A stretch of DNA of 64,000 bases from Roseomonas sp. Its GTDB lineage: Bacteria; Pseudomonadota; Alphaproteobacteria; Acetobacterales; Acetobacteraceae. The stretch covers positions 1-64,000 of the forward strand of contig JADCFN010000033.1 of NCBI GenBank assembly GCA_020249505.1. The letters run 5' to 3'. The notes under the pieces were generated by a model. It saw only the letters and a program-made list of their open reading frames with translations, did not search any database and was not told the DNA's origin. Of this stretch, positions 1-2,987 are shown in pieces. Position 1 is the stretch's first letter; each line of letters opens with the position of its first letter. The translations under genes were made by a program, and so were the position numbers.

Positions 1-348
1 AGTTGCTGGTGGTGGCAGCATGACGCCCGGAATCCGTCCAGGGCGTGCCGCCAGGGCCAAAAGGTCACTGAAAATGGTTGTATTCAGGCGAAAGCAGCGT
101 TGAAAACATGCGCGCAAGCTAAAATCGCGATGCTCAATGAGGGCTTTTCAGCAGCCTGCTAGGCTGCGGCACACAGTTTTGCTCCGGTCGGCCCTTTTAG
201 GGAAGATGAACCGAACCCACCATGAACGGGTGCTGGGCTTCTGGCAGGGCGAAGCCCTGCCAAGGCCAGAGGAGTTCATTACTTGAAGACTCATAACGGT
301 CCATGATTTGGACATCCGCTGCGTATTGAGAATGGTTGTTCAATATTC
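1..348. other. Intergenic or unresolved region at the left window edge
   Basis: No convincing gene. One frame on the + strand is open from base 2 to a TGA at 101-103 and could be the last 33 codons of a gene beginning outside the window; its tail is arginine/lysine-rich and I do not recognise it. A perfect 9-bp stem with a 3-base loop lies at 242-262. Base composition is more mixed than in the formate dehydrogenase genes to the right. Confidence 0.3.
242..262. repeat. Perfect hairpin, 9-bp stem
   Basis: Bases 242-250 (TGGCAGGGC) are the exact reverse complement of 254-262, with loop GAA. It lies about 90 bp beyond the stop of the leftward DACNV-like gene, so it could help terminate that transcript. 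No T-tract follows on either strand, so the role is undecided. Confidence 0.4.
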
Positions 349-1674
349 TCACTTAATGAAGGAACTATTCTCCTGAAGGGGAATCGCAATGTCCTTGTTC
401 ATGGTTGGTCTATCCGGATACGCAGGGTCCCACCAGAATGCCGTCACGCCACCATCCTGAGAGATAACGAAAGCTACATCACGCTTGTGGTTCAGGACAT
501 GGGCGGCTGTAGATTGGTGGCGCATGCCGCCGATCTTTTCTATGGCAATAAGCTCACCCTTGGTCGGGGGCGAGGCTGATTTCAAACTGCCGCTTTTCTT
601 GGGTGATAGCTTCGCCCCGAAACCAAGGATGGACGCGTTCTTGCCAAGAATGACACACCCGTCCACCGCAGCCATCTCTGCGACAGCCTTCGCGTGGTCA
701 AACACAGCTGTTCGTATTGCTTCGACTTTGCCGATATATGTGCCATCCCCGTTTTTCTCACGCTGTCCGGACAGGGAGGTATCCACAAATTCATGGATCA
801 AATTCAGTATCGGCTTGATAGTGGGATTTGTGGATTCAGCGGAATATTTCACTCCGATCTGGCCATCGGGGTTTAGGTTTACTTGGGGCGTGAATATCAG
901 CGTTCCACCCTGACGAAGGGCTACAGCGTGTCTTACCGCCGCAGTCAACCAAGCTCTTAAATACTGGTCAATACACCTATTTTTCAGCGAAATAAAATCA
1001 GATTTTCCTGAAGCCGGCTCCCGCTTCAGGAGCTTTCGATCGCCGACCAGTGCAAGCAATGAATCCCACCCGGCTTCCGGAAATCTTGAAAGAACCCTGG
1101 CGGTACCTCGGATGTATTGCGTAGACTGAGCGATCCCAGAAACACGAATGTGCCCTGGGTCTAGAATCTCCACCATCAAGGGTGACTGTGGAGAGGCCCC
1201 AAGGATATTCACGTTTACTTTACCAAACTCCATTGGATGACGATCTGCCAAAACATTCGCGAGTCCAATTATCTTTGGCTGGTCGTCTGTTAGCTTGATC
1301 GCTAGCGCCCTATTGGGCGCCTGGCACGCGGGCGATAATTTTGCTATATCGTTTGTACTCAATGGCATTGCGTTAGCGAACTGAATCAGGTCTTTGATAT
1401 AAAATCCATCCAGACATAACAGGATTCTTGCGCGACATGGACGAGACTCTTCAATGGTGAGACTCGCGTAAAATGCAGTTCTTATCATCTCGGCAAGGGT
1501 TCCATCAGGACAACTTTCGGCTAATCGCGCATCATCATTTTCTCGAATCCATTGCTCAGAGAAATCCGCGTACTCCTCTGGCGACATTTCTTTGCCGTGT
1601 TTGGGCGGCGGCGGCCCACCTCGTCCGACAAGGGTTACCATTGCACTGCGTATCACTTCAGAATAAGGGCTCAT
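349..1674 (-). CDS. DACNV-type sensor domain protein with degenerate diadenylate-cyclase-like C-terminus
   Basis: 441 aa, no signal peptide or membrane segment. The N-terminal half carries an EESRP block (75-79) and an LDPGHIRV block (171-178), which I associate with the DACNV sensor domain. The C-terminal part resembles the DisA_N/DAC fold: a DGC triplet (338-340) where active cyclases have DGA, and RHQ (385-387) where they have RHR, then an SQDG strand (405-408). Known from the family: DACNV domains were predicted by comparative genomics to be nucleotide-linked sensors. Inference: a non-canonical, perhaps inactive, nucleotide-binding protein. Codon use is visibly less GC-rich than its neighbours (AAA, ATA, TTT frequent), suggesting transfer. 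The family call is from remembered motifs, and function is unknown. Confidence 0.55.
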   Translation of the reverse strand: MSPYSEVIRSAMVTLVGRGGPPPPKHGKEMSPEEYADFSEQWIRENDDARLAESCPDGTLAEMIRTAFYASLTIEESRPCRARILLCLDGFYIKDLIQFANAMPLSTNDIAKLSPACQAPNRALAIKLTDDQPKIIGLANVLADRHPMEFGKVNVNILGASPQSPLMVEILDPGHIRVSGIAQSTQYIRGTARVLSRFPEAGWDSLLALVGDRKLLKREPASGKSDFISLKNRCIDQYLRAWLTAAVRHAVALRQGGTLIFTPQVNLNPDGQIGVKYSAESTNPTIKPILNLIHEFVDTSLSGQREKNGDGTYIGKVEAIRTAVFDHAKAVAEMAAVDGCVILGKNASILGFGAKLSPKKSGSLKSASPPTKGELIAIEKIGGMRHQSTAAHVLNHKRDVAFVISQDGGVTAFWWDPAYPDRPTMNKDIAIPLQENSSFIK

Positions 1675-1736: not shown

Positions 1737-2987
1737 TCAAAACACCGCCCCAAAGGGCAATACCGCCACACGATCACCAGGGGCCACCGCCGTGATGTCT
1801 TCTGGCAATTCCGCAAAAGCATCGGATTGCGTAAGGGATGTGAGCAAGCCCGCCCCTTCACGCGCAAACTTGCGTGCGCGCGGCAGGCCGCCCGTGGCAT
1901 GCAGGCTGATGCGCACATATTCGCGCCGCCCGGCCTTTTTGCGGTAGCTGAAATCAGCCTCGGCGACAAAGCGCGGCAGGGCTTCGGGCAAGGCACCCGC
2001 CAGGCGCAGCACCAAGGGGCGCGCCAGATGCAGGAACGTCACCACCGCGGCCACGGGATTGCCGGGCAGGCCAAGCACCGGCGTGCCGCGCACCAACCCC
2101 ATAGCGGCAGGCCGGCCAGGCTTCACGGCCAGGCGCCAGAACACCAGCCGCCCGCCGGCTTCGATGGCCGCGCGCACATGGTCTTCCTCACCGGTGGAGA
2201 CACCGCCACTGGTCAGCAGCAGATCATGGCTGGCGGCGGCGTCATGCAACGCCGCTTCGGTCGCGGCGCGGTCATCTGGCAGGATGCCAAGGTCATGCGC
2301 TTCCACCGGCAGCGCCGCCAGAAGCGCCAGCAGGGTGAAGCGGTTGCTGTCATAGCTCTGCGCGGGGCCGAGCGTGCTGCCAGGGCTCGCCAATTCATCG
2401 CCGGTCGAAAACACGCCGACCTTAAGGCGCGGGCGCACCGCAAGCCGCGCCTGACCCAAGGCTGCCGCCAAGCCAATCTCGGCGGGGCCAAGAATTTTGC
2501 CCTCGGGCAGCGCCAGCGCGCCGGCGGCGATGTCCTCACCGGCGGGGCGCGCATTGGCGCCGGGCTTGAGACCGGGCGGGACGAAAATCGCTTTACCGTC
2601 GCGGCGGACATCTTCCTGCATTATGGCGGTATCAGCGCCTTGCGGCATGGGGGCGCCGGTGAAAACGCGCATCGCCTCACCGGCCGCAACGCCGCGCGAA
2701 GGGGCTTGCCCGGCGGCGATACGGCCTACTTCGGTCAGGGCGGTCTCGGCGCCAGGGGTCAAATCCGCATGGCGAAAGGCCCAGCCATCCACGGCAGCGT
2801 TGAAGAAGAGCGGCAAGGGCAAGGGCGCCATCAGCGGTGCGGCCAGCACGCGCCCGCGCGCGGCGGCTAGTGCCACCATCTCAGTGCCTGTGGCCGGCGG
2901 GATGCGTTCCAGGATCAGCGCCTGGGCTTCTTCCACTGCCATCAGCGCGCCGCCAAAGGCGAAGCAATCATCCGAAAGCTGCGCCAT
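1737..2987 (-). CDS. moeA: Molybdopterin molybdotransferase MoeA
   Basis: 416 aa. MoeA inserts molybdate into adenylylated molybdopterin, the last step before nucleotide attachment for bis-MGD enzymes such as the formate dehydrogenase encoded here. Visible signatures: the VDGWAF motif near residue 66, the STGDEL motif of the central MPT-binding domain, and the TSGGVSTGEEDHV and LPGNPVAA motifs of the same domain, with a C-terminal domain IV. Length is normal. The ATG overlaps the mobB stop by one base (TAATG), so the two are probably translationally coupled. It is the last gene of the torD-fdh-mobB-moeA run. Confidence 0.95.
   Translation of the reverse strand: MAQLSDDCFAFGGALMAVEEAQALILERIPPATGTEMVALAAARGRVLAAPLMAPLPLPLFFNAAVDGWAFRHADLTPGAETALTEVGRIAAGQAPSRGVAAGEAMRVFTGAPMPQGADTAIMQEDVRRDGKAIFVPPGLKPGANARPAGEDIAAGALALPEGKILGPAEIGLAAALGQARLAVRPRLKVGVFSTGDELASPGSTLGPAQSYDSNRFTLLALLAALPVEAHDLGILPDDRAATEAALHDAAASHDLLLTSGGVSTGEEDHVRAAIEAGGRLVFWRLAVKPGRPAAMGLVRGTPVLGLPGNPVAAVVTFLHLARPLVLRLAGALPEALPRFVAEADFSYRKKAGRREYVRISLHATGGLPRARKFAREGAGLLTSLTQSDAFAELPEDITAVAPGDRVAVLPFGAVF

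Follow-up and report, generated by a model that had tools for sequence, protein, structure and literature searches.

Introduction

In known diadenylate cyclases (DACs), two DAC domains have to meet head to head in order to join two ATP molecules (PMC8573169). In DacA of Mycobacterium, the exchange of the RHR triplet for AAA kills the activity and the exchange of the Gly of DGA for Ala causes no loss; the passages on DacA mutants in that report describe no single mutant of the third Arg of RHR (PMC3328451). Studies on the CdaA of Leptospira demonstrated that D172A and R203A each abolish activity and that S222A keeps 47.5% conversion, and the SEET motif is named there as a cation site of CdaA (PMC12974146). 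The E. coli system DS-2, consisting of a phospholipase, a cGAS and a DAC, is like the protein described here a case of a DAC outside of housekeeping; its DAC is needed for defence, and 15 of 30 homologues lie next to CBASS (Science 2026, PMC13092281). For the link between DACs and CBASS, the DefensePredictor paper cites Galperin, 'All DACs in a row' (J Bacteriol 2023).

The pairing of a DACNV domain (PF21751) with a DAC domain is an already named architecture. Pfam lists DACNV as a 'probable sensor domain', and in RefSeq the name 'putative sensor domain DACNV-containing protein' is given to WP_243520307.1 of Hymenobacter monticola. None of the papers searched for the word DACNV was found to use it. 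The name was reportedly introduced in the survey by Galperin.

Here we describe a protein from Roseomonas sp. which, judged by its sequence, is a divergent new member of the scattered, already named DACNV-DAC family and not a proven diadenylate cyclase. It shares with the DACNV-DAC proteins the two-part order and the D, R-H and S-Q-D-G pattern, whereas it differs from them in an identity of about 25% at best, in having DGC and RHQ together and in lacking a counterpart in the other genomes of its genus that were searched. Unlike DisA and CdaA (PF02457), it has neither the third Arg of RHR nor the SEET motif, and no DisA or CdaA accessory domain was found in it by Pfam (E <= 1).

Results

Gene and domain organization

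The window is the whole stretch of DNA that was analysed (64,000 nucleotides). Its base 1 is also base 1 of the contig and lies inside an insertion sequence. The relevant features are:

1..162, + strand: right end of a multi-copy insertion sequence (repeats in own genome); the contig starts here
349..1674, - strand: DACNV-DAC protein gene, 441 aa, intact ORF with ATG start, stop codon included
382..990, - strand: DAC-fold domain, about residues 229-431 (predicted fold)
451..462, - strand: SQDG, residues 405-408, in place of SEETG of CdaA (alignment)
514..522, - strand: RHQ, residues 385-387, in place of RHR (31-row alignment)
655..663, - strand: DGC, residues 338-340, in place of DGA (31-row alignment)
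1258..1515, - strand: DACNV probable sensor domain, residues 54-139 (PF21751, E 3.1e-13)
1737..2987, - strand: moeA (MoeA domains), upstream neighbour on the same strand, 62 bases from the DACNV-DAC gene

The DACNV model was matched with 50.2 bits (cut-off 27), while the match of residues 334-410 to the DAC model PF02457 stayed under the cut-off (15.9 bits versus 27, E 0.01). These were the only Pfam matches at E <= 1, and searches with NCBIfam and PADLOC gave none at this limit. Some other members of the family pass this cut-off (Kurthia with 29.8 bits, Planctomycetota with 28.9 bits). The DAC assignment is firmer than the PF02457 score alone: with a permissive limit of E <= 1, each of the 31 aligned members is matched by both models, the best DAC E being 1.6e-7. 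Moreover, a profile of the family DAC halves matched 11 other DACs with a probability of 97.5% in global and 96.6% in local comparison. The fold search with the predicted structure of the window protein returned only DACs in its top rows, and the fold comparison was clear; one of the fold alignments covered Foldseek's own top chains only. A sequence profile of the DACNV half returned designed repeat proteins (best E 3.8e-6) and other, weak matches in the PDB, all of which we read as composition matches.

Overall, the protein was shown to be a DACNV domain joined to a C-terminal domain with a predicted DAC fold. The initial annotation had proposed a DACNV-like and a DAC-like half and a check by profile and fold searches; the DACNV half was recovered by Pfam, and the DAC half by profile similarity and by a predicted structure with a DAC-like fold.

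Distribution and phylogeny of the family

Among 59 relatives, the gene was found only in its own genome (0 of 34 others of the genus and 0 of 24 others of the class). Of the genomes sampled, 2 of 385 in the class and 44 of 398 in the phylum carry a DACNV domain, the own genome being counted in both; several of those in the phylum are Magnetococcales. Scanning genome contigs gave 69 family loci, the majority from Magnetococcales, with further copies in Desulfobacterales, Syntrophaceae, Nitrospira, Methylobacter, Planctomycetota, Riflebacteria, Chloroflexi, Kurthia, a cyanobacterium and others. From these 69 loci, 30 were taken into the alignment and 38 into the tree; the selection was made manually, by length and so as to avoid near-copies.

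In the 41-row tree, a branch with a support of 98/100 separates two groups: 31 rows share S[QH]DGP, and the other ten lack its Pro. The window protein is among the ten, of which nine have SQDG[GR] and the Hymenobacter row has SQDGA. It forms the longest branch of the tree (4.14), and its place within the group is uncertain as long branches meet there. The nearest relatives share 25% (L002) and 24% (L079) identity with it. The longest branch and the low identity could mean a loss of constraint. In Magnetococcales proteins, receiver-PAS or GAF domains precede the DACNV-DAC pair, which is in the output position; DACNV was matched in six of six such proteins scanned and DAC (E <= 0.01) in three of six. 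These proteins differ from the window protein in their extra sensory domains and in lying, with their Pro, on the other side of the 98/100 branch.

Phage or plasmid carriage of the window gene was considered and rejected, the protein having no match in the plasmids, phages and viral contigs searched. Two family alignments also gave no match in viral contigs, and neither did the Kurthia relative in phages. The Chloroflexi, Fimbriiglobus and Kurthia relatives, used as queries, each found the same two Hymenobacter plasmids, which carry the family, one copy being split into two ORFs. On a Hymenobacter volaticus plasmid (L177:11037-12279), the DACNV part and the DAC-like part are annotated as separate ORFs.

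Catalytic triplets and conserved motifs

The Asp of the DGA site is present in all 31 aligned rows, with Ala as the third residue in 29, Cys in one (the window protein) and Thr in one. RH is found in 31 of 31 rows as well, followed by N in 13, R in seven, S in five, Q in three, H in two and K in one. D338, G353, G383, R385, H386, F402, V403, S405, Q406, D407 and G408 are invariant in these rows, which span several phyla; the last motif is biased here because the loci were fetched by the pattern FV[IL]S[QH]DG. When 30 loci were fetched by DACNV instead (one from the class scan and the 29 best-scoring ones from the phylum scan, many or all of them Magnetococcales), S[QH]DG was present in 28 and the other two were truncated. 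In the 28 untruncated loci we found DGA in 27 and DCA in one, QDG in 24 and HDG in four, and N (13), S (6), T (3), A (2), G (2), R (1) and H (1) as the third RHx residue. A Magnetococcales copy of the larger tree group (L128:7902-9134), carrying DCA and RHN, is another natural double variant.

In the larger tree group, the third Arg of RHR is present in two of the 31 rows and absent from 29. It is also absent from eight of 11 other DACs, where the third residue is R three times, T twice and K, H, I, A, V and L once each; these 11 were parsed out of 13 (L179 and L201 had no motif by the pattern) from eight carrier genomes and are no general sample. The ten-row subgroup of the window protein shows RHR in seven rows and RHQ in three (window, Riflebacteria and Planctomycetota), as well as DGA in eight; only the window copy changes both triplets. 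The exact DGA and RHR triplets are absent from the window protein, while the D, R-H and S-[QH]-D-G residues of the family are all present. Both residues whose single loss abolishes the activity of Leptospira CdaA are kept.

DGC and RHQ lie where the initial annotation had placed them. Its suggestion that the altered triplets point to a different nucleotide was not confirmed: the third Arg is variable, RHQ recurs in the Riflebacteria and Planctomycetota copies, and DGC leaves the Asp intact. Since loss of the third Arg is common, the triplet changes are no evidence for a new nucleotide and we rejected this inference. However, the prevalence of RHR in the subgroup of the window protein itself speaks against dismissing the changes easily, and the protein may possibly be degenerate.

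Genomic slot and c-di-AMP machinery of the host

The GC3 of the window gene is 0.51. For comparison, the other ORFs with a length of at least 300 aa in the mechanical list for the window, 27 in all, have an average GC3 of 0.69 (sd 0.04) and a lowest value of 0.62. Bases 1-162 recur at 11 further places in the own genome (at least 123 matching bases, 77-99% identity), eight of which lie no more than about 250 bases from the end of a contig. The insertion sequence was seen at ends of the contigs C95, C3, C83, C15, C34, C93, C67 and C43. A longer copy (L211) encodes a DDE transposase (PF01609), and by eye comparison with it bases 1-23 are the last transposase codons (LLVVAA, stop).

On the other side, moeA is present in 43 of the 59 relatives, own genome included (E <= 1e-60). 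An acyl-CoA dehydrogenase-like gene, recognized by eye, follows moeA in at least six of 29 relatives' loci, with other sequence in the rest; the own copy of this gene is on another contig and has a different neighbour. The varied genes after moeA indicate that the slot is variable and that the window gene is, as far as searched, strain-specific. The window gene occupies a strain-specific slot between moeA and the insertion sequence; the window genes beside it that were scanned with Pfam are moeA, mobB and parts of a formate dehydrogenase. Among the plasmids compared, the FdhA of the window resembles those of Methylobacterium, Microvirga and Azospirillum, in keeping with an alphaproteobacterial host.

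The own genome contains a single match to the window protein and a single DACNV match. No DAC match at E <= 0.001 and no DarA-type receptor were found in it, and SMODS (PF18144, one CD-NTase model) had no match in its 98 contigs (99.32% complete). We considered whether this genome has another DACNV gene or a canonical DAC and rejected both, none being found. Eight of 19 carrier genomes also have a strong canonical DAC (E 1e-18 or better), while G262, which is of the same class, six carriers of the same phylum and four others have no DAC beyond DACNV-type matches, many of these assemblies being incomplete. The genome of Desulfogranum marinum (G787, with L124) is rich in DACs, with six DAC matches at E <= 0.01, canonical and DACNV-type.

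The window gene was shown to be acquired, based on its GC3, its absence from the 34 other genus genomes and the adjoining insertion sequence end. The initial annotation had called it a lone, acquired gene of lower G+C, unexpected in Alphaproteobacteria, and each of these points held, loneness for the assembled sequence and rarity for the class genomes sampled.

Neighbourhoods of family genes

In Riflebacteria, the DACNV-DAC gene of the subgroup is located within a type I restriction locus that also contains Mrr and PDC-S26 genes (L075:167-11696). In Chloroflexi (PMKN01000087.1, L108:2371-9278), an EVE-AAA gene with a PDC-M26A match, a DUF2357-PDDEXK_7 gene and the DACNV-DAC gene follow each other on the same strand, which makes this stretch a candidate for a defence operon of three genes that includes a cyclase. 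The DACNV-DAC ORF opens there 24 bases downstream, and the similarity starts about 300 bases further in. A DNA methylase is located 2.8 kb from the Planctomycetota copy and a Zot-family gene 0.8 kb from the Syntrophaceae one, and the neighbours of the G262 copy look like housekeeping genes. Among the best 25 of 164 PADLOC families near the subgroup (50 mechanically listed neighbour ORFs at ten loci, window excluded) were type I restriction, PDC-S26, a methyltransferase and others; around the other group, represented by 64 ORFs at 13 loci, 17 families were matched, including AAA-, TIR- and cyclase-like ones. We make no claim of a defence enrichment near the subgroup, as the sample is too small and the other group also gave PADLOC matches.

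Discussion

With modest confidence, we lean towards the reading that the window gene encodes an acquired, stand-alone DACNV-DAC protein, controlled by its sensor, which would bind ATP or c-di-AMP and may plausibly have kept its cyclase activity. The DACNV half would sense a ligand or a cell state and control the head-to-head meeting of two DAC domains, and the paired domains would join two ATP into c-di-AMP, as known DACs do. Since the Asp, the first Arg, the His and the Ser are kept, the DAC half most likely binds ATP or c-di-AMP, and it may plausibly still be a cyclase, perhaps a slow one. The reading as a whole is favoured by the domain matches, the DAC profile similarity, the predicted structure, the invariant residues, the output position of the pair in Magnetococcales proteins and the published mutants. 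Several points count against it, namely the score below the Pfam DAC cut-off, the longest branch with its identity of about 25%, C340 in place of a nearly invariant Ala, the change of both triplets, SQDG instead of SEET, and an own genome in which canonical DAC, DarA-type receptor and SMODS match were not found. The inactivation of Mycobacterium DacA by RHR to AAA (PMC3328451) belongs here as well.

Alternatively, the DAC fold may be catalytically dead, in which case it would do no more than bind a nucleotide (c-di-AMP, ATP or another one) and act as a sensor or switch; we consider this reading possible but doubtful. It is favoured by a DGC that is unique among the 31 aligned rows, by the double change found in no other row of the subgroup, by the sub-threshold score and the missing SEET, and by the fact that no partner is known. 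However, the protein retains the Asp, the first Arg, the His and the Ser, and the third Arg is so widely missing that its loss alone cannot mean a dead enzyme; moreover, those family members that stand last in a receiver-PAS chain look like outputs. If the gene were decaying mobile cargo, left by an insertion event and now without function, its branch length, foreign composition, adjoining insertion sequence end and absence from the 58 other relatives searched would be expected. We regard this as improbable, given an ORF intact over 441 codons, the preservation of all invariant family positions and a purine-rich stretch before the ATG which, read by eye, resembles a ribosome-binding site.

An anti-phage system, in which the cyclase signals upon infection and a neighbour reads the signal, would be compatible with the sensor-controlled DACNV-DAC protein that we prefer, although there is little to make it likely for this gene. 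The Riflebacteria and Chloroflexi copies and the DAC requirement in DS-2 (PMC13092281) point in this direction. On the other hand, only two of ten subgroup loci (window excluded) are clearly defensive, with a third having the DNA methylase nearby, and the scanned genes beside the window gene are those of moeA, mobB and formate dehydrogenase; its left flank is missing. Defence was tested in DS-2 only, and the genome of the window gene differs from that system in having no SMODS match. A wider proposal, which we hold to be rather unlikely, is that the subgroup without the SQDGP proline comprises mobile, phylum-hopping DACNV-DAC cyclases of phage defence. DACNV would sense infection, DAC would make an adenine cyclic dinucleotide as a signal for variable neighbours to read, and the window gene would be one case in a bacterium without other recognised c-di-AMP machinery. 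If the subgroup is defensive, this would add to the recently published case in which phage defence requires a DAC.

Our comparison indicates that the last Arg of RHR, missing from most rows of the larger group and from most of the other DACs compared, should not count as a strict DAC signature. Moreover, a stand-alone DACNV-DAC protein in a genome whose search returned no canonical DAC offers a clean background for finding out what DACNV proteins make or sense.
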